A program made the position numbers and the translations under genes. From the NCBI RefSeq assembly GCF_032854445.1, contig NC_088295.1, positions 20,881,385-20,945,384 of the forward strand: a stretch of 64,000 bases of DNA. The letters are read 5' to 3'. The notes below the pieces were generated by a model, which saw only the letters and a list, made by a program, of their open reading frames with translations, was not told the DNA's origin and searched no databases. How positions within the stretch are numbered: position 1 is the stretch's first letter; the number at the start of each line of letters is the position of its first letter. This DNA is from Liolophura sinensis (Eukaryota; Mollusca; Polyplacophora; Chitonida; Chitonidae). Shown piece by piece: positions 110 through 54,188 of this stretch.

Positions 110-3100
110 TTTACAAATGATTCCATAATAGATTTACACACATCAACTTTCACAGATTCTTTTTGAAACATGTCCACAAATGGTAAAAATTTATCCTGAA
201 ATAGCAAACACCATTGTGTACTGAAAGTCACAAAATATTAATACTAAGAAAAGCAAGCTGAGACACAATAAAACATTGTGAGTATGAATCCCCTTGAGTT
301 AGCTGTTAATAATCATACAGTATGTACAGTTTTAAACCTTTGATAGGCCACAAGAAAGGTGTCATTTCATGATCACAGATGTGTTTCCCAGACAGGAGCA
401 AATTACAGAGAATCTGCTGCATGGAACCACAGAAGAAGATGTAGAGCCCTCCTGTTTCAAGACAGAGCATGGCAAGAAGCTAATTTAAAAGTTTTTATAT
501 CTTATTTTTTGCAGGATAGTTTTGTCTAGCTGTTTTTTTTTACTTGAACTACAATATCTCAGTTCGCCAAAATCACAAAAGTACACTTCCTAAACTTTGT
601 ACAGGATACTCTTTTGATACATTTCTACATTTAATCTTGTGTTCTCTTTTCTTTTACTCTAAAATGTAAAATTTTATAAGAATTAAAAATATGTAAATAT
701 ACAGCTGTTAAGGACCAATGAGAATTACATAAATCATTAAATATGCAAAACTTAAGCGCGAATCAAGTTAGTTTTCCAATTCAGCTTGAGGGCTGAGCGC
801 ATACTCTTTGTAACATGAGCATTTCATGATCCTCCTAAGTGCAGTTTTCAAGATAAAGGCACATATTAGACATACACTCACAGAAAAAGAGATCACTACA
901 TATCCCTCTTTTCATGAGGAAGCATAATTAATCTGAAACACATACAAGCAGATAATGATATGGCCAAGGAAACACAATGACATATTTTACTTGTCACCCA
1001 AATGTTTACCTCCAAACCCTTATAAATTACCCTGGAATGCATGATAGCAGCTGCCTGAGTCAGTTGTTCATGTAACTGACTGAATATTAACATATTGTCA
1101 CTATGCAAGAAATGACTTCTTCATGCCTTATTCCTTGCCTACTATTCCCATCCCACATATGCCTTCAGTTTATCACTATACAAGGGGTACATGTAAGAGT
1201 GATGACTAGTACCTAGCTTACCAGTGAGAACAGCAAGGAGAAGTCATGGATATGGACTAGTATCTTGCTGACAATGGAATGAAGTTGGGGGTAAAACTCT
1301 TCAAAGGCTCTATCAGGCATCATGTGTTTGATGACATCAGCCAGTATGGTGTTCACCTCTCGTTTCTACAGTCAACAAACATACAGACAAAAAATTTACA
1401 CATATCTACTTTATCAAGTGTTAGAGGACATCAGCCTTTTCATTTAACATCAATAAATACAAGTATTCAACATGCAGGCTGATTTAGAAAGTTCTCCTTC
1501 ACTGTTCATAATTGGCTATCTTCTAACAGTAATTAACAACAAAGATGAAGAATTAACAATGAAGAAGAAAAAGTCTACAGATGAAAATAAATTGGGTTAT
1601 GAAAACTAATTGTTGATCTAGCAAAAATATCTGTAGAGTGAGAAGAACCCTTACCCCAAAATGTTTCACAACATATTCAATCCAAACTTCTGCACAGCTA
1701 ATGTAATCCTGAAAAAGAAGGAAGTGATTTTTTCCATCAACATCTTTATATATTATAACAAACTGCTTGTTTAATTTCTTCTTCTCAATGAAATTTTATG
1801 TAAGTGAAATGAATATACATAGTGTGGAGTTGTACAAAATGTTGTTGTGGTGATCAATATCTTTTGACTAGTGAGGCTGCATTTTTAAATCCAACACTTG
1901 CTCACTTGGCACAAGACACATGTATATACTGGAAAGTTATCAAGTTTCTTCATGGCATCAGATTCCGCAATGTGGCTTCAACCCAACAACCTAAAAGTTG
2001 TTACTTAGTGAACATAAAGCCTGCCACCATATATACATAGAAAAAAGGATATAAGACACAGTGTGTGATGGGTAATCCTGTAGCACCATCTGAATTAAAT
2101 GCACTGTGAGGGCCCTGCAATGTCCTATTACGCAACTGCAGAGAGACACTGTCGGGAGCTGTCTGACATTTGGTTAGCCTTTTTTGGTTGTGCTGAAGTG
2201 GATGTGGTTTTTGTGGATGCAGTTGTGAGAGATCCAGCGACACAAACAATCCAGTAGGCACATTTTGGTTTGTCCTTGTCACCACCTGATATGTCACTAT
2301 TATATTGTGGTTTTTGTGGATGCAGTTGTGAGAGATCCAGCGACACAGACAATCCAGTAGGCATATTTTGGTTTGTCCCTGCCACCACCTGGTATGTCAC
2401 TATTATATTTTTTATCACATTAAATAGTTGATGCTATCGAGATGTACGTGTGATGCTCATAAGTCAAATTTGTTTGCAAAGTCCTGTAGAGGATTGGCCG
2501 AAAATGCCGATCCCATTGCAACATTGAAATAGTCGTTCAGAACATGTCTGTTTTTCTAGTACTTAACCATTTTGGTCAATTAAACAGGTGTCTGTCATTG
2601 CTCTTTTTAGTTGATTGTATGATTGTATAGGGAAAACAAATTGAACATAACATGCATTGTCCTTATACGGGAAACAGATTTGATGTATCAGAAACACTAT
2701 TGAATGAAAATTTTACAGAGCATTTCTAACGATAGTCACATGTAGTTTAAGGTAGAGTACATTTATTGTGATATGTGTAATGAAAGTTTGATTGCTGACC
2801 ACAACACGAGTACTACTGAACAAGTGTTGTGTAATACATGTTCTTGTGTACTTATTACCATTAATGTTTGTTTAGTGAACTAAACTTGATCTGTCAATGC
2901 ATATAATTGAATAATGTGTGCTATTCTGACTTCAGTCATGCATGTCATGGGGGACAGCAAGTATTGATGCTGAGCCACACGTGATATTTCTACATTAATG
3001 GATACATTCTGTTTTCATATCTTTGCAGCCAGTCACTGTCTTGTTGCTCTGTGTTCATTTTGTTTGTGCTTATACAATAAACCATAAAACCAAGCCCTAT

Positions 3101-6100
3101 ATTTTGTGGTTTTGCTGTGGACAATAACCCTGCCATCACATATGCAAAAAATTCTATAAAGTTTTTGAAGCCAAGAAGATAAAAGTTCAGCATTGGGGTT
3201 ATGGCACTGATGGACAATTCACATAGAGTAGCCAAGTTGAAGAAGCCTTATGAATTTGGCCAATCACTAGTGCTGAAAGCGTCATATAATAATTGGTTTT
3301 CATGTCAAAAGACCTATTAGCTCTCGATTGTCAGCGTTGTTTCTTACAGTGGATAAATGCAATAAATCAGATTTTGTGGTTAGTTTAAGTGTTTAACTGA
3401 TGCATTTTGGGCCACACATTTATGGACAGGGAACTGAGAAAGGTTGCCCGCATCACAATGTGTACATGTTGGACAGGATACTGTCATATCTTGTCAGGGG
3501 TGAGAAGGCAAAAAAAATGTCATTGCTTGAAGAAACATGTTGTGGTGTTGCATTATTTTTCCTTAGCAAAGTCAGATTCATTACGAAAATATTGTCTCGA
3601 AATCTGCATGAAAAAGTCTCCTATAAATCAGAAGGTCCTGCTATAGTCCGTAAACTTCCTAATGTTGGTAGAGCCAGCTAGACCTAATGCAGGTCAAAGA
3701 CGAGAACAAGCAGGACTGCGAAAACACAACGCTCGTGCCCACAAAGATCACAAAGACCAAGCGCCAGGCTAAAAGAATCAGCCCTTTGTAAATGGGACTG
3801 ATACTCTTTGGTTGGGTATCAGGCATTTCTGTTTGTATATTGGCATATTGTCTAATACTGATGGTATGGGAGAGCTCCTAGGTTATGTGACTTCACTCTC
3901 GACAGCAAAGACATGGCAAAATGGCGTCACCAAATGGGTGGCTAGGTACTGATGATCATTTGCTATTTATTTTGTTGATAAGAGGTGTAGAATTTTTTTA
4001 ATATTTTGAGAACATTTCTGGAGTTCTCCTTTATTAATTAATTCAGCATTAATGGCTGACTTCATGTTCCCTTTAGGTGAAAAGCTGTAAATCATTAACC
4101 AGCTAAAAAAGTATATAAAATTTTTTTAAAAAGCATGCGTCACAGGCCTTAATAACTATATTTGAATGATTAAAATATGTTTTGCCAAAAATGTCTGTCT
4201 CTCTCTGATCTGAAAGTGTTGATGCATGAACAGTTAATCAACGATAGCTACTTTTAGAGGCCTTACCGCTGGTTGCTTGAGTTTCATCACGACTTTCCAG
4301 ACATCATTCAGCACACCCAGCCTCTGGTCAGAGGGAGGATCCGCCATTACCAAACACAAACCCAGGGTACGATACAACAAATGCTGGGAATACAGAAGTA
4401 ATACTGGGTTAATCCTTGCAGCCTGATAACAACTGAATAATGCATTTGTATAGACACATTCCACTTTGACACATAAACCAGAAATGCGTCACAAATTAGT
4501 TTGGGTCCTTACATCGGGATTCCACTGAAGTGGTTGTGGCTTTTCAGGAGCCAAAATACGCATGTGACAAGCCATTAGAACAAAGTGAATGGTGTGGCTG
4601 TAATACAAGAGCCACACCCAAGTAAAAGTGAATCTGCTTGGTATGACATCATCATCTTGTTTTTACTAAAACAATCACAACCAATTTTAACAGGAAAACA
4701 TTTTCATAATACCTTCCATCTCATTTAATTTTTGCATGGTGTTTAATGTTGTACACAAAACTTTAACGAGATACAAAATCGTTTCTCCTTGGCTGGTGTG
4801 AGAGATAGGCAAGTCTGGGCTATGTCCAACGTAAGATGAAGTTTAGGTATGGTTTTCAGATTTATTCCGCTGTGATCAAAGTTGTAAGCTTTAAAGCAAG
4901 AAATCCTATCTCCACTGTCTGCCAATCAGCGTCGATTCTGGATTCGTTTAATATGTTTGAAGATCTAAGTAGCGCCCAACTGATAGCACTCAATGTTTGA
5001 TCCTGGCTCAAGGTGTGTCTTTCATTCACATACCTTTGGAAAGCCTGTTTCCTCACATTCCTTGATAAGCTCAGTAAACTGAAGGGCGCGGTTGGCAATA
5101 TACTCTGGCTGGAATGCCGACATGATGGAGTTCAACAGAAGGGCACTGAATTAAAAACGTAATCTTGAAATAACAATGAAAGCAGGATATATTAAATGCC
5201 AAGGTGTTTGTCTATATTCTGAAAAATGGCCCACAACAATGATATTTGGTAGGAAAAGCAGACTAACCTAATTCATCAAGCTTTTTGCATGTGAAAGGAC
5301 AACTTTCACTGTGCTTTATGCACCATCTAAATTTGATTTTGAAAATACAAATACACAGGTTGGATGGGTGAAATTCAAGGCTTAAAAAGTATAATTTTAC
5401 CAGTCTGCACAGTATACTGTAATAACTTCAAAATGTGCTTGAATAAAAACCTTGCAAACACGTGAAAAGGTCAAAGAATTACGCTAGACTGGTTGATACA
5501 TGTACTAGTTTTTTGAGAATTTTCACTTATAAAAAGGCTGTTTTATATCTGGTAGAAACCGGAGTACCTGGGATAAACCACCGATCTTTGGTAAGTTCCT
5601 GGATTACGTCCCATGTGTGAAGTACAGACTTAAATGCCATGTTAGTGAAGATAAGTGGCCTCGAAAAAATGTAAGACTGCGCAAAAGACCACATGAACAT
5701 TGTCGACTGCCTACTATCGCCATAGCTCCATGAAATCTGGGAGCTGAGGAAGCTTATTTGAAGTAAATGTGTTATTTTCTCTTACCTATTACACTGTGTC
5801 TTACATTTCTCCAGGACATCTAGCAGAGTTTTCTCAGAGGCCTTGTGAGCTATACATTGTAATATCCAGTCTAAGGCTGGCGAGAAGAGCGTCAAGTATT
5901 TGGGCAATTCTAACTTCTGAACAGCCAGGCTATTCTGTACACTGTCACTCTGAAGCTGGAAATAAAATTAATTATCACCAGACTTATTTTATTTGCAGCA
6001 TACAAAAAGCAATATCACATTGAGTGTAATATTTTTGACTACATATTAAACAGTTGTTAACAATTCTGCTTTGAACAGAGTATGCATATCAACATTTTGT

Positions 6101-18198: not shown

Positions 18199-18257
18199 GA
18201 GGAGTCAGATCATTTTAATAAGGTGCTAGTGTGGTGTGAGTATTGATCTGTTTGTAT

Positions 18258-18806
18258 ATGGAAGAGGCAAACAAAGACATGGAACAGCATCCTATATTCA
18301 GCAAGGATCCGGGCCAATGGATGGCTTTGGTTCACAAAGAAGTATTGGTAACATCTGAGACAGGAAGACAGCACCAGGGGTGGGTTTACACCATAGACCC
18401 AGTTACACAGAGCATTGCCCTGGCACAGTTTGATGGGGCCACTAAGACCCTGCAAAACATTGAGATTGTACTGGGCCACGCTGTAAAGGAGATGAGAGTT
18501 GTGAATGAGAACACTGAAGAATTTAGAGAAGCGCTAACTAACCTGTGCAAATCTGTGTCAGATATGCCAGAGACACTGAGCCAAGAAACTCTAAAGAGGA
18601 GACAACTCAGTCTGAAATCCTGGCTGGAGAAAAACCGTCTTCCAGTCAGAGTAACTGGTGAATTGGATGACACATTGACAATAGCTGATGTATTAGTTGT
18701 TCAACCTCCATTTGGACCAGAAAACTGTATTTGTACGAATGAGATCATCTTGGGTAGAATCCAGGGTCTTATAAAAAACATGCCAGCTGATCATGAACAG
18801 TGGTAG
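18258..18806 (+). CDS. GEMIN6: GEMIN6, SMN complex component
   Basis: Gemin6 pairs with Gemin7 as an Sm-fold dimer in the SMN complex, which loads Sm proteins onto spliceosomal snRNAs. The single coding exon gives 182 residues (human 167). Family matches run in order: an LVHKEVLVT first Sm-like strand, QGWVYTIDPV, GHAVKEM, LKSWLEKNRLPV, VLVVQPPFGPENC and NEIILGRIQ. This covers the N-terminal Sm fold (about residues 20-95) and the C-terminal module typical of the family. I chose the first in-frame ATG (MEEANK, 18258). A second ATG at 18279 is possible, and an upstream non-coding exon cannot be excluded. The gene starts only 59 bp after the MED9 stop on the same strand, with no AATAAA between. 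Confidence 0.93.
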   Translation: MEEANKDMEQHPIFSKDPGQWMALVHKEVLVTSETGRQHQGWVYTIDPVTQSIALAQFDGATKTLQNIEIVLGHAVKEMRVVNENTEEFREALTNLCKSVSDMPETLSQETLKRRQLSLKSWLEKNRLPVRVTGELDDTLTIADVLVVQPPFGPENCICTNEIILGRIQGLIKNMPADHEQW

Positions 18807-41302: not shown

Positions 41303-42158
41303 TAGTTGAGAACCGATCATACCAACAACAGTTATGGTAAGAATTTTACAGAATCCTCTAACACTAGTTACCATGAACATGTTGTAAATAAAGTCTATTT
41401 TCATACTACCAGCAGTCGAGCAGTAATAATAATTATAATAAAACATGTATGTTCCAGTTACATGATATAAAAGAGAAAGAATGTTCAGGTTTGATTATCT
41501 TGATGACAAAAACGAAATGAATAAAATGAAAAACTTGAGATTAAAACTTGGTGTATGAATGATAGAAACAATTCAACAGAAAAATCAATGGTAAAAGCAG
41601 ATAAAATGCTCAAAAGAATTCACTATAGCACCAGGCATTACAAAGAAATTTCCATCATAAAAAGTTACTCGATCAAATGGTGAAGAAATGCACATCAAGG
41701 CTTGCGCAGTAAACGTTAACACATGGACAACATTTACACACCCATGCATATGCTACCTATACCTAATCAAACCGTACATTTCACCGCAGCTACAGTAACC
41801 TGTTTAAATTGACAATATCTGTCCTGCAGTCCACTGTTTGCTTATGATATTTGAATGAGTTACATTAATGTTGATGAATCAAAAATCTACAAGATTATCA
41901 TCCAACCTCTGCCTACATAATTGTGTACGTAATTATGTACATAATTATATAACTAAGACAGTTTTATGCAGTTAACAATCGTTAAGTTTTCTGACCTTTC
42001 TGTTCCCACCTGTAATCAATGTGACCATCATATGATCAAGACTACACAAAGCATAACATGACAACATGTGAGTTTAGGCTGCTGAGTCACAGCACTGACC
42101 ATCGGATTACTTCAGACACATTTTGGCCACACAAGCCACGTGTACATTTCGTCCTGGT

Positions 42159-45100
42159 TCAACGACGCTTCTTGTTGCTTTTTTTGGAGGATTTTTTGGA
42201 GGACTTACTGGGTTTGTCTTTCTTTTCTTCCTCATCATCTGAGTGATACAGTTTGCGTCTGGATGTGACCTCCCCTTCCTCCTCAGAGGAAGTGTACAAT
42301 GGTTCTGCACGCGTCTTTTTTGAAGAGCTTTTTCTTGATTTGGGCTTGGCTGGCAATTCTTCTCCCTCAGACAGACTTTCATCTTCGTCATAATATCTTT
42401 TATCTCGCTTTTTTCTTCTTATTTCCCCCTCATCTTCGGAGTCGGTGTACAGTGCCCTTCTCCTGGAAGAGCTCCCCTTTACCTTCCTCGTCTGCTCCTC
42501 CCTCTCAGAGTCCCCCTCATCTTCCTCGTAATCCATACGTGACTTCTTGCTGGGTGACCTTGACTTGGGCTCTTGTTCCTCCTCATCAGACAACTCACCC
42601 TCTCTGTGTGAAGATTTCAGCTTGCGGCGCCTCTTGGACGCTGACTTCCCAGATGGAGATTTGCCTTTCTTGGACGCCTGTTTCCTTTTCTTGGCAGGTT
42701 TTTCCTCTATACCTTCTTCTTCCTCCTCTTCCTTTTGTAACATGGGTGCTTTCCTGCTTGGCTTAGATGGGGTGCTGGCTTTCGGCTTGAATTTTCCACC
42801 CTTACTAGACTTGTTAATAGTTTTGGACCCAGGTTGCTGTCTAGAGGATTTGGACCCACCTCGTGAAGCTGTCTTCTTTGGTGTGTATTCCAAAGGATCA
42901 TCCTCTTCAGACTCTTCTTCACTTTCTGATGTAAGCTTCCTTCTGCGAGACTTACTGGCTGACTTCTCAGTCCTAGATTTAGAGCGTTTGGGGGATTCTT
43001 CAACCTCACTTTCATTCTCATCTTCCTCTTTGTAGCTGACCTTTCTTTTGCGTTTCTTTGGTTTTGTGGATTTGTGTGGGGAAGTGTAGCTGATAAAGTC
43101 TGGCTGTCTGCCCTTAGCAGCAGCTACTCTTCCCATGCCTCTTCTTTTACTTGGACGTACTTTATACAGTGGCTCCACTTGTACTTGAGTAACTTCCTCG
43201 ATATCCTCCTCAATGTCACTGTCCTCCTCACCTCCCAACCAGCTTGGACAGGGTGTGAATGGCTCAGCCAGCTGAAAGCTTCCTGTGCCACCAATTCCAG
43301 ACAGCCGTCTGAAAATAACAAGTTCCAGGTCAAAGACAGACATTACATCATTATCTCTGTAGGTGATTACAAAAGTTCTTTTATTGATTGACAACGCACA
43401 GATTATAACTACTCCCAAAAAATAGATTTGATAGCACGGCTGTCAAAGATCTTACCTGGAGGAAACACACGAAATCAGAACTTCAGCTCCGTACATAAAT
43501 TACCTTTTTTAGATACCACTGTCCATCCTAACATTACCTTAAAATGGATTCTAATACACTAAAGAAGCTGTTCTGAATTTTGTAATTTACAATAATTAAC
43601 ATGCATTACACACATGATATTGTAAGATACTACATTTCACATTTATCTTCAGCAATTCCAATACTCTGTGCACAAAACACATCAACTATATTTTCTTTCC
43701 ATACTTGAGCTAAATACATGTAGTACTTTTGGGACAGAACCCTTAACATTCCTTTAATTGTTATTGGACACCATCACTCAGGATATGACATTAGCTCCAA
43801 CTGTACTTCATACTGGGGAGCTCAAAATACATTGATGGCAAGAGATTTAGTGAAGATTCTTGTGTCGCCATTTTGCCACAAATTCCTCACAAAAAATGTT
43901 TATTATATTCAATTGATGAAAAAGTAGTTTGAGATATATTTTACAAACCTCTCTATCTTTGTGTTTGCCACTCCATCTGGGTATTCGTAACCACTGAAGG
44001 CTGACCATTTTCTGACCTTTATAGATTACACTCCCCTCTCACTAGAAATCTTCTAACAAAACCACCATGCTCAATGCACACTTTATGAGAACAACAATTT
44101 AAAGGATGTAGTATTATTATTATGGACACTTACATGATCTTGCCAGTCCTTTCTGCTTTTTCAAGGGCCCTCTTGAAATGGTATGGTCGTTTATCAATAT
44201 TGAAATTAGGATGATATTCTATGATGTACTGCTTCAATAGGTTGACTGAAGATTGCTTGGGTTCATGGCAAGCCAGAATGGCCAAACATATCATGTCTTC
44301 AAGTGTTGTGCCTGCAAAAACATCAATCAAAAACTAACTGTCAAACAAACAATTTTTAGCACTGAAATTCATCACAAGGTATACAAGGTATTTACTAGAA
44401 TACTCTGCTCACCTCAGATATATCTGCATGTCTTCCAATCCTACACACACTGACAAGAGACAAATGAGTGAATTTCACAACATATTTATATCACCGGAGT
44501 TTTACACCATACTCAGAATAATGGCTTAATGAAATCAATCAGGGCCTGGGGGCCAATTCCACAAAGCAATTTCTGACTCAGAGTCAAAATTTAAAACCTG
44601 GTCATAATGTTAAGCTTTTGGTATTGCAGGTTGTAAATTTGTAACATTTGTTATCAGATACCATTTATGAAATGGTCAACATTTTAGTTTCCAGAGCCAC
44701 AGGAAGACTGCTAAGTAGTATTTCAAATTCTGACTGAAGTCAGAAATGGCTACGTGGAATTACCACCCAGCAGGTAGGGCCTGCCAAACTGCCAGGTACA
44801 TCATAACATTGGGCCTCATGGACCGGTCATATTTTTCAGAATTACTTCAGAAGGCTGAAAATACTATGGCCATCTTTGCATTAAATTTCAGTGCAAACAC
44901 AGCACTGACTTTTCTGGTGGAAGAGCAGAGGAAAACCTGCCTGGATATGACCATGGTAGAGTGGAAGTAAGCAGGCAACTTACATTTCAGAGGATTGATG
45001 TCATCCACCTGTAGTCTGAAGGAGCCGGAAGAGCCTGTACCAGTCACCTGTTCCCACAGTCCTTTCTCACAACCATTCAGCAATGTCTTCTTAAAACTAA

Positions 45101-48100
45101 AACAAAACTGCATGTTACAGATTTATAAACAACAATCATACATCAATAAAACAACCCTAACTGTTTATTATATGATTATTCCTCAGCAAAAGTTAGTTAT
45201 TCGGTTGTACAAGAGTAATACATAAAGCAAGCTTGTTGCTACATAAACCCACTACAATGCTGCTACTCACTTGGCCTCCAAGTCCACAGATGGGAAGTAT
45301 TTCTGAATGTACTTCTTAATTTTCAAACTGGAAGCATCTTTGGGCTCACACATAAATGTCATGGCCATAGGAAAGACATCATCTATAGTCCTTGGGTCCA
45401 CATGACGAGACACCCCATGAAAAGTCCGAGGTCTTGGCTTCCTCTTTGCTGTTAAACAGAAAAAAGCTTAATCAGACACTGAAAATTATTCAATCTCCTT
45501 TATTTCAGATCCACCCAGAAAGTTGCTTACTGTCAATGAACAGCCATAAAAATTACACAAGTGAGTGTGAGACAGTTCCATTGAAGGATTTAACAGCTTT
45601 TTGTGTCCGAAACCTGAAAATAGTACTTTGCTATTTTCAGCTGGTTGCTTTAGAAACTTGAAACAGGGTTCATACAGCACAATACATGTGCTTGATAAAT
45701 TCCAAGTCTTTCCAGGGCCTTTTCAAGATTAACTGACCCTCAACACTGTGTAGTTCTGGCCACATTTTGGCAGACATTGGATCATTTAGCCAATTGCAAA
45801 TATTTTGCACTGCTATTGTGCATTAACAAAATAACAACCAATTAAAATCTTGCTCCACTTAAACCTCAAGAACCTGACACCCCAAAACAAGCAGTTTAAA
45901 ATCTTTTTGTCACTTTAATCCAAAGAAATTTGAATTTCCAAGAAATTCAAAGGCCTGCACATAAATTCCATAACATTCAAGGCCTAGAAATTTCACGACT
46001 TCCAAGAATTTTTCAGGGCTGTATGAACCTGTTGAAATTTTATGTATTTTGACCAGAAATTTGATGGAAACAGCCAGAGTTTAAAAAAGAACCTAGTTCA
46101 CCTCAATATGAAACTGCATGCAAAATATGAAACCTTTACCTGAAGCCGTTTGACACAGAACACTATCCTTTTGGCATAACAACATACTGATGGGATAAGA
46201 GCCATAAAAGACTACATGGTCATTCATAAAGAACATCTTGCCTATCAAACAACCCTTTTCAATCAAAAACATTCTCTGTCAGGAGAGAATATAAATCGTG
46301 AGAAACTAACATATCAATTACATGAACGTTTTTTCTTCTTAGACTTTTTGGAGTCTTTCTTCTCCTCTTCGCTTGCACCTTCTTCTCCCTTGCCGTTCAC
46401 ATCCTGTAGAAATAACACAACAAATACTACTAAATACTTTCTACTATACTTACTAAGTACCATACTACACTTTGATATCCTGGTATTGCATCAAAGAAAA
46501 CTGTGATTGGTATTCTGGAGAACAAATTTATTTATTTGTTTCATTGAATGTTTTACGCAATACTCTAGAATAATTCACTTATATGATGGCAGTCAAAAAC
46601 CATGGTGGGAAGAGCTACCGCGCTAACCACTTGGTCATGGAGGTCCTTTCTGGAGAACTATGGCCTATGGTATATAACAGCATATGCATGATGTACTTAA
46701 ACGAAAACAGGAGTACTACCTCAGGTACGCACTCTACCAGTATGAATATCATGTAATACCTTCTCCTCCTTTGTCTGCCCATCTTTCGCTTCCTCGCCTT
46801 CTTTGCCGCCCTCCCCGTCCTTTACTCCATTTTCACCACCTTCCTTCTCTTTTCCACCTTCATCTGGTTTCTTGGTTTTCTTCTTCTTTTTCTTTTTTTC
46901 ATCCTCCTCATCTTCTGGGTAGTCACCTGGCAGGCGGTAATATCCGGACATCCCCATACCTTTTACCTGGTCACAACAACATATGAACCTCGATCACCAC
47001 GATGTTATTTATTTATTTATTTATTGGATTGGTGTTTTACGCCATAATTAATAAGATGTCACATGATAGCAGTCAGCATTGTGGTAGAAGCCAGCATTAC
47101 GGTTGGAGGAAACCAGGCACAGCCTAGTAAAAACCATCCACAGGTTTCTGCCAGACCTTCCCATGATCTCATCATGAAACTATACATAAATTTTTTTAAT
47201 ATGAAATCATTATCGGAAGTGGTTTGATTTCTACTGCAATCCTGTCACTGACACTGAGCCATTTCCAATCAGTTGCGATGGAAACCAGAAATTTGATTAA
47301 AACAACCATAGTTTCAACAGGAATCCAGTTTCCCTAATATATAAACCTACATACCCAATTTAAAATCTATATCTGAGGCGGTTTAACATCTACTGTCAAT
47401 ATGTCACGGGAACTTGGCTGTCAGCCCCAGCTTAAATATTTATTTATTTCAATGTTACAGAAGAATTTTTCACTTTTATGATAATGAGTTAAATCTGACT
47501 GCGAGGGTAAACCACCAAACTTTGGCAAGTTACAAACTTACTTTCCCTTGTGTGATACACGTATGCACACCCTGTACTTGGAAGATAACTGACATAAAAA
47601 TGTTAAAATAGCCACACAAGCTTATTGTCACCAAGACCTCAGAAGTAGTGAGACTGGGGTAATCTACCAAACCTCTTTAGTTGGGAAGGGAGTGTGGGTG
47701 ATACTGAGTGTCTATCCAAGGAAACTTGTTCAGACCTGTCACAACAACACTTACAGGGTAGATCAGATCTGAGATCTGTTTCATTCTTCCCAGATTAACT
47801 TTTGGAAATAATGTATCTGTGTCCATTTCGTCCATTTACTAATCTAAAACTCGGTCTTTTTGAGCGTGCTGTCCTCAACATGTCAAAGCTCTATTGTACA
47901 AAAGTACACGTTCGTTTCCTTTAGTCTTACAGCAATTCTGACTTCATATCACCTAGTTATCCGTGAAATCCATAACACCACTGTTAACAAAAATGTACCT
48001 GTCATGTCAAAAGCAAGCCTAACTTTGCTGACCGCCGTTTTCAATTTAAGTCAGCCGCACTCTACGCTTGGAAAAAAGATTATAATAATGAACAAAAAAT

Positions 48101-50874
48101 AAACAAATGTTGTGAAAAGAAAATGATCTTAATTTTTAGAAAAGCAGAGGAGTTCGCTCTTGAAATGGAGACATAGGATTCAAAAAAGGTTGTTTACAAA
48201 GTTCAGCTGCTGTCCACGTGGATATGTCAGTTATATTTGGATTACTTGTGACCGCATAATGAGGTGACAGAGTTACCTTAAAGTTATGGAAAACCTGTCT
48301 TATTCACGTACACTTTTGACACTTTGAGGACAACGCAGGTGACAGGAGCAAGTTCCAGGTTTGTGAATATAACAACACAGAGTGGTTAATGTGGAAGCTA
48401 AGCTGCATACATGGCCAACCAATCTCAGAGCTAAGAATACATGTATGTACTTACCAGCTCAACATATCCAAATCTGACTGCTCTCTCAAGAGCAACTTTC
48501 AGGTAGGCTGGTCTCAGATCCAGTCTCAAAGCTGGATATTTGGCAATGATGTAGTGCTTGATCCACACAAAGCGTAAGCCTTTTTTCTGTCATAATTGTC
48601 AAGGGAATTAACAACTATGTGTAAAACCTCAGATGAAGATTATATAGTTTAGATACACTATAATCCACTTGAGTGAAGGATGATTAACACATTCTACACA
48701 AAGTTTATAAAAAGGATACAGGACTGCCCCCTTCTTTCAGAGCTTCAATTATTATGTCTTTCATCTTATGATGTAAGGACTCTGTCTTCTTTGTTTCCTT
48801 CTTCTTTTTCTCTGACACAAGTCCTTTATAGTCTGAACCCTCCTTAATAAGATACCTTTTTCCTCCAAGAACGTTACTCAGTTGCTGCAGCGTGAAAAAA
48901 TCATTATTAACACATGTAAACATGGAAGAGATCGACCATCGAAGAAGTGTATATACCTGTAAAAAAAAGTCACTTTATAAAATGAAAGATTGAATGAATG
49001 GATGAATTTCTTTATTTACTTGATTGGTGTTTTACACCATACTCAAGAAACTCAAGAATAATGAATGAATGATTAAGGCCTAATGCCACATTGGTGTTAT
49101 GTCAGCAATATCATGGTGAGAGGAGATTAAAACCAGGAAACAGTTACAGCTTTCCATATCAGAAAGATAACATATTAAAACAGAACAAAAAGGAAAAAAG
49201 ATAATTTTTAAAATCAGTCAAATAAGAGAACTCATCTATAGTTCAAAAACTGAATACAGTTTGTATACAACATCCTAATTTAAAAGTATTTCTGAAATAA
49301 TTCTTTACAGCCGTAACAGAAACACTGAAGGGTCTATTCTGTTCACACACGCACAAGAGAGACTAAGGCTAGTCACCAAGCTTGTCTAAAGGGCCAAGGT
49401 GCTGCAGTCCTTTTCACCCAGGAGACTTCACATGGGTTTCAGTCAATGAAACATTTGCAAATGGTGCACTGCATGCATGTAGCTCAGACATGATCACAAT
49501 GTAAAACTGATAAATCCAAAGTCTGTAAATGTGGGAACAATGGAAAAATTTACTTCTACTTGAGCCAAACAGAAAAATTAAATCAAACATTAACACCACA
49601 ATACTTTCCATACTCTCACAATATCTTCTTTCGAAATTGCTTTCAGGGACATTACATTTTCACAAAACCAAAGAACATCCTTTCCCACATAATCCAACTT
49701 CCTTAGGGAATCTCAAACATCTACTCACTCTGTTGAAGGGGGTAAGCTCAAGGACATTTATCCCTTGAAGAATACAGTTTTGTTTGTAGAATTCATACAT
49801 CTTTCGTCCACTTAGATACCCATCTTCCATGGGTTCAAAGTTTTCCTTTAGCCTGTAAAACACATCAAAATGGACATCTCTAGTTTAACAAGATGAATTA
49901 CAATCAGACAGTGTATTTGAATAAGATTCACACAGCATATCACACAGATATTCAACTCTTCCACCCAAAATAATGACTGCCATCATGTAAGTGGAAAATT
50001 CTTGAGGCGTTTGACAATTAGTCAGTCAGTCAAATATATTGAGGCCTAACGGTAATAACCAGATTTTTACATGTTCGATGGGCCAAACTATACCCAGCAA
50101 TCACAAGTCTCTCATAGGGTCAATGTAGCCTCTAAGTACCAGGGTCCTCCTTTCTTTGGTTTTCAAAATATGAGTAAATTACCTAATAACATATCCAGAG
50201 ACATGCATCGTGCAAGACACACAGGCAGACCACGAACACTTCCAGTATTGAAACATGCGCAGCTAAGAAGAGATAGAGGGTACTGCACAATGAAAGTCGA
50301 ATAGCACAAATACTTTTCGAGTGAGAGGTGAAATGATAACCCACAAAACGTGAAGTGCCTATCATTAACTTATGGACTGACATATACTCACCAAACAGAT
50401 GCACACATGGACGATTATCAATTTTATATGCCTAAAATATGCACAAATGACAATCACCACACACACTCTATGTAAGTTGTACGTAAGTTTTATGATTATT
50501 TTTATGGTGTTCATAACCTTCAGTCTTGTCCCATTTCAACTTTAAATCCAGAGGTTGACCTGAGTAATAAATGTTCATACTGGATTCAACATTTTATGAT
50601 AACCTTATATTTAGCACATATTTTCTCACCATTCCGTTAGCTGCAGTTCTGCAAGTGGCACTGTTCTTTTACGTTTAGCATCCAGAATCGTATCCACATC
50701 AACACGTGAGGTCAATAATCTGCCGTCACCTCGGTCACTCCTCTTCTTACTCTTTATGTCATGTCTGTGTTTGTCACTCTGGGCCGTGTCCCCCTCTACA
50801 GGTGTACTATCCACCTCATTTTCAGCAGACCAGTTGCTGGCTGTCAGTTTCTTCAGGCTTATTGCACTTGGCAT
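42159..50874 (-). CDS. RFX-like winged-helix plus triple linker-histone (H15) chromatin protein
   Basis: Ten coding exons in transcript order: 50630-50874, 49729-49852, 48720-48884, 48455-48586, 46760-46966, 46322-46403, 45271-45448, 44984-45096, 44134-44311, 42159-43308. They join in frame to 2574 nt, 857 residues plus TGA. Residues ~77-150 resemble the RFX DNA-binding fold: LTEWLKENFEPMEDGY, then RKMYEFYKQNC, then FNRQLSNVLGGKRYLI. Three H15 winged helices follow at ~160-237 (MKDIIIEALKEG, IKHYIIAKYP, ending SGYYRLPG), ~339-406 (IKKYIQKYFP, GTGSSGSFRLQ) and ~417-488 (LKQYIIEYHPNF, GIGGTGSFQL). Lys/Glu-rich linkers separate domains 1 and 2. The last ~370 residues are Ser/Lys/Glu-rich with many S-D/E-E clusters, CK2-like. 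Triple H15 recalls HP1BP3, which binds HP1 and linker DNA. The RFX-like part is not something I know in HP1BP3. A nuclear DNA-compacting role is inferred. An acceptor at 50885 implies an upstream 5' UTR exon. Confidence 0.85.
45664..46031. mobile_element. Non-autonomous DNA transposon with terminal inverted repeats and 6-bp target duplication
   Basis: The left end CAGGGTTCATACAGC (45664 on) is mirrored by GCTGTATGAACCTG at 46018-46031. Both sides are flanked by TTGAAA (45658-45663 and 46032-46037), a clean target-site duplication. The 368-bp body has GGCCTTTTCAAG on one side and inverted AAGGCCTAGAAATTTC-type words on the other, with no coding frame. It sits in the intron between the exons at 46322-46403 and 45271-45448. 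The superfamily is not assigned. Confidence 0.8.
46520..46645 (-). mobile_element. SINE copy, short internal deletion
   Basis: The tail (TTTATTTATTTGTTTCATTG) is followed by body words TTCACTTATATGATGGCAG and GGTGGGAAGAGC. It ends in the complement of a tRNA-like head, ACCACTTGGTCATGGAGG. The head appears fused close to the body, so this is an internally shortened copy in an H15-gene intron. Confidence 0.65.
46990..47170 (-). mobile_element. SINE copy, 5'-truncated
   Basis: Starts TTATTTATTTATTTATTTAT, then GGATTGGTGTTTTACGCC, then GGTTGGAGGAAACCAGGC and CCATCCACAGGTTTCTGCCA. This is the minus orientation of the common SINE. It lies 25 bp from the acceptor side of H15-gene exon 5 (46760-46966). 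Confidence 0.75.
47436..47530 (-). repeat. Second SINE-like variant
   Basis: TTTATTTATTTCAATGTTAC, then TTTTTCACTTTTATGATAAT, then GGGTAAACCACCAAACTTTG. It matches the variant at 54535-54650. Confidence 0.5.
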
Positions 50875-53021
50875 GGTGTTGGCTTCTGGATGAGGTAAGA
50901 ATCATATCTCATTATTACACATCTATTTTTAGCATGTTCAAAGGTCAAGCATGTCAAATGTTATTTAACCACACAAGCTGGCATGGAGAATAAAATTACC
51001 ACCAGTAAAACATGGGTATTTGAAAATGCCCCTCCTCCTGCTCATCCCTGTGCTGTGGAGCTTGTCTCTAGCTTGTTCAAATCTTTCAGGCAGTAATTAC
51101 ACGTTAAGAACTGCAATGAACCAGTCTCTTGCCTTAATTATTCTCAACAAAGGGAATTACGAGTGCATTCCTATTCTGTAACAACAATAACAATACCAGA
51201 TTTAACTATAAACCAAGTCTTCAGTTTTGTATTTAGCCCAAAAGTAACTGCACAACAGTATATTAAATCTGAATTAAGTCTTCTGCTGTTATACTTTAAA
51301 CTTTGGCCACCTGTATTGGCTGCTGAATTTGGCTAAAATCTTCATTATAAAATTTGACTTAATACCAGTATTAGCTAATACACTTTCAAATAACTGGGCC
51401 AAGAGTCATTTAGTAATGGCACAGTACTGCACACAAATGATATTCCTCACACTGACATGCATTGTGTTGAGATGTCTTGAGTCACAATGAAGTAAGGAAA
51501 TATAGAAACAATGACCACCACGTGTAGGGGTTACACCTTATGCTATTTTGTGGAACACCAATGTCACCAGCTTTGTACACGTATATGGATGGGGTTCGAT
51601 TGGGGTAAAAGTAAGACTTAAAGGTGGTATCTTTTGCATGTATTTGCATGAGACTTGTTTGAAAACCAAGACAATCTGCTTAATCCTTCACCAAGTTTGA
51701 ATTTAACATTATAAGTGAAGAAACTCAAACAACACTAAGCCAGCACAGTCCTAATGAAAGAAGTTATGGTCTTTTGAGACAAAATTGAAGCCATGCAAAT
51801 AAGCCTGACAGGCTTAGCACAATTCTGTGGCAAACGTTAACAGCTTATCTTAGTTATATATAAACCGTTAAGGCTTCAGTCCTATAATTGTAGCCAGGCC
51901 CCAAAGAAAGTCCAGAGTTTCACTCTCAGCCAGTGAAGTTTTGGGCGACAGATAGAATAACAGGTTAACTACCGTTTTATTTAGCATTCCGTCCGAGTTA
52001 CTGGAGAGTATTTCAAGAGATTCAAAAACTGATTCTTTCGCAAAGCCAGACCATCACCGTTAATCAAGTGAGCATCACTGCATGCTGGCTCCTGCTAAGA
52101 CTGTTACCGTCAGACAGTGTTGGCAGCTTGTTGTGTACGGTACACTGTACGTGTACATTTCACATTCGATGTAGTTTGCGCGATGCAACAGTCATCATAA
52201 CCTAAGACTGTGGCCTGGGTGTATTCTGATTGCTTTTCCGGGGATAAGGGCCACGCTTCGGACCATGTTCATGCTAACACTTGATGATTTTTATCGGGTG
52301 TCTCCCACAGGCTATCCAGACACACGGACAGCCATGGCGTCACTGACACAGTTTTTGTTGCCCATCGACTCACAACAATATCCGCCAGTCTTCTCAAAAT
52401 TCCGGACCACCGGCCGGCTTCTACCACATGGAGATCACGGCGACCCAATCAATCGTATGTTACGCATCCTGTAAATCATATACATTAGCTTCGCATAAAT
52501 CCAATCAAAATTATTTGCATCTCACCACAACAGCACCCCTTCCAACGATGCAATGAAGCTTTACACCAGACAGCGCATGCGTCGGGGCGCACCGACCTTT
52601 ATGCAAATATATTTGTGATCTCATAGCTGAGTGTGTGACGTCCATGACGTCACGATTGAAAATTATATTTACCAAATCTTGCAAAAAATATTTCATTTTT
52701 TTCTATTTTAACATCACGGTGCTTGGCAGTCTTACGTGACTGGGGCAGTCCTATCCTCGGCACTTCAGTTTTAACTTCTAGGATACCGTATCTTCGATTA
52801 ACATCACGACATGTCCAAATGCATATAGGTTCCAATTTTAAACTGTGTATATGCTCTAAGTACAAAAGGAAGTTGCAAAACTGTAGTGCCTTTAATTTTT
52901 TGCACTTCTTCAGTCCTATTCCCTCTTCCCGCAAAAAAGAGTTATCGTTCTTGGATCGGTCATTTCCAGTGCTGCTGTTTCGTTGTGGCGGAAAATTACA
53001 AAAGTGAAAACTTCACTGGCG
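50875..53021. other. Upstream region of the H15 gene
   Basis: The splice acceptor at 50885 (minus strand) shows that transcription of the H15 gene begins further right, but the 5' non-coding exon cannot be placed. The stretch includes a diverged dispersed repeat at 51615-51740 (sister of 13806-13925). No coding gene is supported. The open frames around 52265 and 52650-53007 have no recognisable similarity. Confidence 0.5.
51615..51740 (+). repeat. Dispersed repeat, second copy
   Basis: Collinear with 13806-13925: TGGTATCTTTTGCATG, GAGACTTGTTTGA, CTTCACCAAGTTTGAAT, GAAGAAACTC. Unclassified and non-coding. Confidence 0.5.
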
Positions 53022-54188
53022 ATGGAAATATCCAGCTCTAGTACGACTGAGGACATTCTTAACTTTAAGACAGCAGAAATTCAGGTTTATCTTCGTACAA
53101 AAAATAAGATGATGGGGAACTGCCATGTACCTCAAAACCATGCATTTGGAATATGCACCTAACGAAACAGACAGCAAAACTGTTGATGAAATAGACCTCA
53201 AGAAAATCAAATATGGTAGAATGGAAAGACAACAAAGTGGTCATAAGAAGAGTATTGCTCTGAAACAAAAGGACGTGACATTTTCCGAGAAGCTGTGTGT
53301 AAGGATATAGACTACGAATGCTATAATCTTTGACAGGAATCACATTTACAGTCAACAGACTTTTATCCTAGTTGTGATATAAATGTATATGCAGTGGAAG
53401 AGAATGAAACATCTACAATAAAAACTTTTCAGACAAATATCTTGACATAAAGGATGCTATGTCAAACACTCAATTACAGGAATTTTCCAATTTTGTGAAT
53501 TATGTACCAAAGTCAGTTAGGGAAGAAGTTGAAGTAAGAACAAGAGGACAAAATAGAAATAACTTGTGGGTCAGTGCACATAAGTGCAGGGTAACAGCAT
53601 CCATCTTTCATGATATTTATAGAAAAAGAAAAAACTTCACCTGTCAGATTAGTTGATCGTGTCACTAGAGAAAATCCAAGTGATCTGTCACACGGACAGT
53701 CCAGTGGGGACTTAAATATGAGGGTATTGCAAAGAAGAGATACAAAGCATTCCAGCTTTGGAGGTACAAAAAGAATATTGAGGTACAGGAAAGGACATTT
53801 TCTTTGTGATTCATGCGTATATTTAGGAGCCAGTCCTGATGGAGTTATTAAGTGTGGTGGTGGTATTTATTTCATTGAAATGAAGTGTCCTTATAAATGG
53901 AGGATCTGTACTGTAGAAGAAGCGTGTAAAAGCTCAGAATTTTGGTGTTATATTAATGCAAATAACTCTCTAATGTTAAAGAAGCATCACAGATATTATA
54001 CTCAAATCCAAGGCCAGTAGGCAATCTGCAAACTTTCAAGATGTGAATTAGTCTTATACACACTGAAGGATCTCAGGATTGTTGAAATCAAATTTGATGA
54101 GCAGTTCTGGTTAAAAGTGTTGCCTAAATTTCAACCTGTTTACATTAACGTTATTCCAGCTCTGAAAAGGTGTGTCAGGGAGCATTAG
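53022..54188 (+). pseudogene. Decayed YqaJ-type nuclease gene (mobile-element derived)
   Basis: The YqaJ family is related to lambda exonuclease and is common in invertebrate mobile elements. The best-preserved part is 53459-54188. It shows an RVTASIFHDIY start of the domain, GASPDGVI (metal-binding Asp), FIEMKCPYKW (E-x-K catalytic pair), YYTQIQGQ, and a late FDEQFW. The gene is broken. A frame change near 53635, in an A-rich run, shifts the N-terminal segment into the next frame, and an in-frame TAG at 54018 interrupts the QGQ-x-AIC motif. Upstream, 53022-53115 encodes a SAP-like TTEDILNFKTAEIQVYLR stretch that soon ends in stops, and 53125-53310 is open in another frame. The breaks lie in both halves, so this copy is dead. 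Confidence 0.8.

Follow-up and report, generated by a model that had tools for sequence, protein, structure and literature searches.

A predicted protein of the chiton Liolophura sinensis with an RFX-like N-terminal segment and three linker-histone domains

Background

Does a single gene of Liolophura sinensis join an RFX-like winged helix to three linker-histone (H15) domains, and what would such an N-terminal domain do beside them? The gene lies in a 64,000-nucleotide stretch of the 609-Mb assembly (contig NC_088295.1, positions 20,881,385 to 20,945,384), which is called the window here and to which all positions refer unless another locus is named. A first-pass annotation, made from the sequence alone, had proposed this domain order, and suggested a linker-histone-like chromatin protein with sequence-directed DNA binding.

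In vertebrates, HP1BP3 is described in the available part of the report as having three globular domains, an acidic DE stretch and a charged tail, and its N terminus is predicted to be unstructured (PMC4344522). HP1BP3-like genes or transcripts have already been reported in oysters (available parts of PMC5431216 and PMC3191543), so the candidate for novelty is limited to the N-terminal RFX-like addition. No description of an RFX-like domain combined with linker-histone domains was found in the literature, as judged by titles and the start of abstracts and with few subscription journals covered, and the papers that mention HP1BP3 together with RFX are, by title, expression, clinical or genetic studies. 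The combination may stand uncommented in annotation databases. A three-H15 protein with an RFX-derived segment in an invertebrate would suggest that the family is older and more diverse, and would be a tangible example of a linker-histone protein that took up an exon of a transcription factor. Should the domain bind DNA selectively, the question of how a linker histone is directed to its sites would become testable.

Gene structure

The gene was rebuilt from the minus strand. Its reading frame extends from an ATG at 50874 to a stop codon ending at 42159, and comprises ten predicted exons with 2574 nt in total, encoding 857 amino acids. All the nine introns (9/9) have GT-AG borders and the ten exons join in frame, so the coordinates proposed for ten coding exons in one frame hold. 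The two joins that had been singled out for confirmation (50630/49852 and 49729/48884) are both possible as sequence, in frame and with GT-AG borders.

Exon 1 (50630..50874; aa 1-82) contains the start codon, a charged leader and the beginning of the RFX-like segment, and its donor lies inside the Trp82 codon in phase 2. Exon 2 (49729..49852; aa 82-123) is 124 nt long, leads from phase 2 to phase 0 and encodes the RFX-homologous sequence (LKENFE...TPFNR). It joins in phase 0 to exon 3 (48720..48884; aa 124-178), which contains the presumed remainder of the winged helix, QLSNVLGGKRYLIKEGSDYKGL (about 48819-48884), with a wing that is not of RFX type, followed by a basic linker and the start of H15-1. 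The bulk of H15-1 (domain aa 159-235) is encoded by exon 4 (48455..48586; aa 179-222), its end together with a charged Lys/Glu linker by exon 5 (46760..46966; aa 223-291), and further charged linker by exon 6 (46322..46403; aa 292-319). H15-2 (domain aa 337-407) is divided between exon 7 (45271..45448; aa 319-378) and exon 8 (44984..45096; aa 378-416). Exon 9 (44134..44311; aa 416-475) contains the bulk of H15-3 (domain aa 417-488), and exon 10 (42159..43308; aa 475-857 and the stop codon) contains its end, an acidic stretch and a long Lys/Ser/Glu-rich tail. All these exons are on the minus strand.

For exon 3, a second in-frame acceptor exists at 48956, which would add 24 residues. The two acceptors were compared using three profiles, made from seven RFX domains, from two ARID2 domains and from all nine together (the sequence of locus L007 among the nine is one residue short at its junction). 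The acceptor at 48884 is preferred, because 48956 scores slightly lower in all three profiles (15.3 vs 15.6 bits for RFX, 10.4 vs 11.5 for ARID2 and 21.4 vs 22.1 for the combined profile) and breaks the F-x-x-x-L spacing.

Linker-histone domains and charged tail

Three H15 stretches are detected by PF00538 on the whole protein (E 3.5e-35). Searched as separate segments, H15-1, H15-2 and H15-3 score 42.6, 43.9 and 50.2 bits (E 6.9e-11, 2.9e-11 and 3e-13), each above the Pfam cut-off of 22.4, which bears out the three H15 domains of the first-pass annotation. All of them are net positive in charge (+15/-6, +10/-8 and +10/-7). Among PDB chains, the set on which we base the naming of HP1BP3 as closest relative, the best match of the H15 region is HP1BP3 (2rqp, a single H15 domain of that protein; E 1.5e-8), followed by H1.0 (E 0.037) and H5 (E 0.094).

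Using the H15 region as query against its own genome, 16 matches were found, which are six exons of the window gene and 10 weaker matches outside it (E 0.016 and above). These 10 coincide with PF00538 matches that we take to be histone H1 genes. A second copy of the gene was not found for the H15 region in this exon-by-exon search, from which weak matches can escape. Of the 27 matches from the PF00538 search of the genome itself, the window contains a single one, the exon of H15-3. A total of 14 of the 27 lie within about 91 kb (G000:C1:57939468-58030083), an apparent histone H1 cluster. H15-2 and H15-3 as query had no confirmed relatives in a viral contig collection, a set that says little on animals.

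Directly after H15-3, residues 491-530 include 10 acidic and 4 basic residues. The tail after H15-3 is 367 residues long, in agreement with the roughly 370 residues first described, lies entirely in exon 10 and contains 99 basic and 77 acidic residues. The tail contains 7 acidic runs of at least four residues and 11 S-[DE]-x-[DE] sites, compared with 0.5 and 2.5 in shuffles, but generic S/T-x-x-D/E sites are not enriched (20 vs 15.5; 224 of 2000 shuffles reach 20). Of the acidic phosphosite-like clusters described for this tail, the acidic runs and the S-[DE]-x-[DE] type are thus retained and a general excess of phosphosites is not. Within residues 734-838, five spaced clusters of tyrosine and acidic residues (DYEEDE, LYTDSEDE, RYYDEDES, PLYTSSEEE and LYHSDDEEE) resemble an irregular repeat.

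HP1BP3 likewise has three successive H15 domains, the third followed by an acidic stretch, and a charged tail at the C terminus, and it is the best solved match (2rqp). These features uphold the classification as a linker-histone-like chromatin protein of HP1BP3 type; the protein may be an HP1BP3 orthologue. The acidic residues 491-530 occupy the place of the DE region of vertebrate HP1BP3, as it is described in the available part of PMC4344522. Two differences are the RFX-like segment at the N terminus and the tail length, 367 residues compared with about 100 in vertebrates. Moreover, human HP1BP3 has the sequence PQVKL between GD1 and GD2, whereas a PxVxL HP1-binding motif is absent from this place in the window protein, the sole match (PSVDL, 371-375) being located in H15-2. 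The protein is therefore named HP1BP3-like, with HP1 binding unsupported.

RFX-like segment

The N-terminal segment contains the RFX spacing (W82-L-K-E-N-F, R-K-M-Y, Y-K-Q-N-C and F-N-R-Q-L). PF02257 matches the 92-residue segment (aa 62-153) with E 1.2e-4, and the whole protein with E 0.0029. However, the score of the segment is 23.1 bits compared with a cut-off of 27 and the match covers model positions 4-49 of 79, so that the segment is not an RFX domain by the curated cut-off over the whole domain. The first half of the segment alone retains the full score, while nothing in Pfam or PHROGs is matched by the second half on its own. For exon 2 alone, the score is 17.2 bits, with a genome-wide E of 3.94. 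From the above, the RFX-like winged helix of the first-pass annotation stands as a PF02257 similarity of the first half and not as a complete domain.

In the RFX, ARID2 and nine-domain profiles, the segment scores 15.9, 11.8 and 22.4 bits, and the best of 20,000 shuffles 10.5, 8.1 and 9.0; the score was reached by no shuffle (0 of 20,000) in any of the three. Pairwise comparison with the nine domains gave z values of 3.6 to 9.9; in four of nine no shuffle out of 2000 scored as high as the real sequence, and in five of nine 1-12 out of 2000 did. These five comparisons, the sub-cut-off Pfam score and the end of the similarity at the exon 2/3 boundary would fit a chance resemblance. The N terminus encoded by exons 1 and 2 would then be disordered or an unrelated helical one, or these exons would be part of a different transcript. 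The profile scores that no shuffle reached and the phase 0 join of exons 2 and 3 argue against this, as does the exon structure given below, and we consider chance a very unlikely explanation. Profile similarity beyond chance together with shared gene structure indicates RFX-like homology, limited to the domain's first half.

Other searches added no relative. NCBIfam gave no match, and the best of three phmmer hits of the N-terminal segment in the PDB has E 0.78. Nothing in Rfam reached the gathering score over 41500-52000 of the window. In its own genome, searched exon by exon so that weak matches can escape, the N-terminal domain found only the gene itself (next E 1.91 and 3.05).

Exon structure shared with RFX loci

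Apart from the window, the twelve PF02257 matches in the genome represent six loci, all of which were examined (L003-L008). The size of exon 2 (124 nt) and both its phases (2 inside Trp, 0 after F-x-K/R) are matched in three of the six RFX/ARID2-type loci (L003, L004 and L005), which we take, by resemblance, to be of RFX4/RFX6 type. In these loci, one base, in keeping with the final base of a Trp codon, precedes the Leu codon at the start of the exon; the exon has 41 whole codons and stops after F-G-K in phase 0. In the window gene, exon 2 likewise consists of the last base of Trp82 and 41 whole codons, and ends after F-N-R in phase 0. An upstream RFX exon, searched with a narrow pattern in four loci, was found in L003 only, where its edge is the same as that of window exon 1; the candidate in L006 does not read as an RFX leader. 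The left phase of L004, L005 and L006 is read from the acceptor side alone.

Locus L006 (G000:C1:39352500-39360500) is ARID2-like; some 18 kb upstream of it, an ARID match lies on the same strand. Its left intron (inside Trp, phase 2) is shared with L003-L005 and the window gene, and its right intron lies three residues later in phase 2. Neither exon edge is shared by L008 (RFX1/2/3-like) or L007 (RFX5/7-like).

Aligned without gaps, exon 2 has 9 of 41 identities with each of the L003, L004 and L005 exons, and only 18, 8 and 5 of 20,000 shuffles are equal, which again speaks against chance. For the coincidence of exon length and both phases, a hand estimate gives a rough probability of 1e-5 (from 9 introns in 2574 coding nt), which rises in proportion to the small number of different structures that were compared. 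Besides the 124-nt exon and the phases at both edges, the window gene and the RFX4/RFX6-type genes have the pattern W-L-x-x-N-[FY]...Y...Y-x-x-x-C...F in common; they differ in the low identity, in the RRLGxRGxSK wing, which the window protein lacks, and in its H15 domains.

Because profile similarity, identical exon length and both intron phases agree, an RFX-type exon is well supported as the ancestor of exon 2. Exon size and phases are independent of residue similarity, and lend separate support to an RFX-related N-terminal segment. Exon shuffling is the simplest route, parallel intron gain being also possible, and the RFX-like segment was probably gained as a whole exon.

Absent wing and primase match

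The wing sequence RRLGxRGxSK, present in all seven RFX sequences used, is absent from the window protein. The second half, QLSNVLGGKRYLIKEGSDYKGL, has no similarity with the second halves of RFX or ARID2 domains (2167 to 4343 of 5000 shuffles are equal), and an origin of this half from either has no sequence support. At the LP[R/K] position, the Arg/Lys of which we take to be the first of nine published DNA contacts, the window protein has an aligned Gly. The core of the domain has no net charge (+9/-9), compared with +11/-5 in RFX1 and +15/-7 in RFX5; the two ARID2 domains have +7/-6 and +10/-8.

RFX factors insert the wing into the major groove and helix 3 into the minor groove, and nine residues touch DNA (available parts of PMC2533330 and PMC2873420). 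An RFX factor is expected to have at least 40% identity to known RFX DNA-binding domains and the nine DNA-contact residues, according to the available part of PMC2873420; the window protein falls outside this definition, with 9 of 41 identities between exon 2 and the three RFX exons and with RRLGxRGxSK absent. An RFX transcription factor proper was rejected on account of the sub-cut-off Pfam score, the absent wing and the unmatched second half. As the wing is absent, the second half has no RFX similarity and the core has no net charge, DNA recognition of X-box type appears unlikely from the sequence. The sequence-directed binding suggested in the first-pass annotation is accordingly not maintained for the X-box type, given the missing wing, the Gly at the LP[R/K] position and the lack of a net positive core.

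A phage DNA primase profile, phrog_1829, matches residues 78-142 (E 0.0038; 16.4 bits) and extends into the wing region, beyond the PF02257 match. With the first half alone the match weakens to E 0.32, and with the second half alone it disappears. Since the match reaches the wing region, the winged helix may plausibly be complete, with a wing of another kind. The same match could suggest that the winged helix was captured from the primase of a DNA virus or transposon and not from an RFX gene. However, a canonical RFX domain matches phrog_1829 more strongly (E 0.00054), which fits one winged-helix superfamily, the PF02257 score of the segment (23.1 bits) is higher than that of the primase profile, the intron phases of RFX type are retained, and one scan each of viral and prokaryote contigs with the N-terminal query, which says little on animals, gave no confirmed relative. 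The match is weak, and a primase or viral origin was rejected as very improbable.

Possible function of the RFX-like domain

The reading that we favour, with moderate confidence, is a nucleosome-linker protein of HP1BP3 type in which a fourth, RFX-derived winged helix provides a further contact, non-specific with DNA or else with a protein. The three H15 winged helices would grip nucleosomal and linker DNA, and the acidic stretch and the long basic and acidic tail may tune residence time and respond to phosphorylation. The fourth, N-terminal helix, with a presumed winged-helix fold and probable descent from an RFX-type exon, would touch extranucleosomal DNA without sequence specificity, or else another protein, close to the exit site of the nucleosome. 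We infer such a contact and not X-box targeting because the RFX wing that reads the major groove is lost. Counted against this reading are the PF02257 score below the cut-off, the unmatched second half, the missing HP1 motif and the different exon edges of L007 and L008.

A purely protein-protein role of the RFX-like domain, such as dimerisation or remodeller binding, with DNA held by the H15 domains and the tail, overlaps with the favoured reading, which also allows protein contact. The neutral core, the loss of the RFX wing and the net positive charge of all three H15 segments would agree with it. However, the RFX-like domains of ARID2 are near neutral too, and that of human ARID2 is nevertheless a candidate for density on DNA in the available part of the structural report (PMC9741621), so that charge alone is not decisive. 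In its exclusive form, we regard a protein-only module as possible but not probable.

ARID2, a PBAF subunit, is the nearest analogue for the role of the RFX-like domain. In the PBAF structure, its RFX-like domain is named as one candidate for an unassigned density located on extranucleosomal DNA (available part of PMC9741621), and ARID2 was excluded from the RFX factors for low identity (available part of PMC2873420). Like the window protein, it is a non-RFX chromatin protein with a diverged RFX-type domain, and the left exon edge of the ARID2-like locus is inside Trp. It differs in having an ARID and zinc fingers, with no H15 domain mentioned in the available part of the PBAF paper (PMC9741621), and in a near-complete PF02257 match (41.8 bits; 7-77 of 79).

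Promoter-level action of an invertebrate HP1BP3 has already been reported, to the extent that the available part of the oyster study describes it. HP1BP3 of Crassostrea hongkongensis (KX981984) was purified on an Hsp70 promoter and shifts this DNA in EMSA, where the competition by an unrelated fragment was "largely compromised"; Hsp70 mRNA rises when the protein is knocked down (PMC5431216). Together with the ARID2 case, in which an RFX-like domain of a chromatin protein is a candidate for DNA contact (PMC9741621), these results would suit an N-terminal winged helix that is a working sequence reader with altered specificity, making a targeted linker histone that brings H15 compaction to promoters. 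Like the window protein, the oyster protein comes from an invertebrate, is of HP1BP3 type and contains an H1-like globular domain. However, compared by description only, it has 477 residues and one globular domain, and the available text names no RFX domain (PMC5431216), so its DNA preference is not assignable to an RFX-like domain. The absent RFX wing, the Gly in place of Arg/Lys and the lack of net positive charge in the core also speak against a sequence reader, which we consider unlikely. A somewhat broader version, in which an RFX exon was shuffled before an ancestral three-H15 protein and yielded a compactor of linker-histone type whose own head targets DNA and chooses the genome site or the nucleosome face, seems rather unlikely as well. 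The favoured reading is the HP1BP3-type linker protein with a non-specific or protein contact.

Neighbouring open reading frames

Two further open frames were observed on the plus strand of the window. The one at 53595-54020 (141 codons) contains an S-P-D-G ... E-x-K pattern, with no Pfam match at E 0.01; the pattern recalls, in our assumption, YqaJ-type nucleases of mobile elements. The single open frame at 18240-18806 contains both Gemin6 Pfam domains (PF20417, E 4.2e-23; PF06372, E 1e-11), a neighbour gene of the SMN complex.
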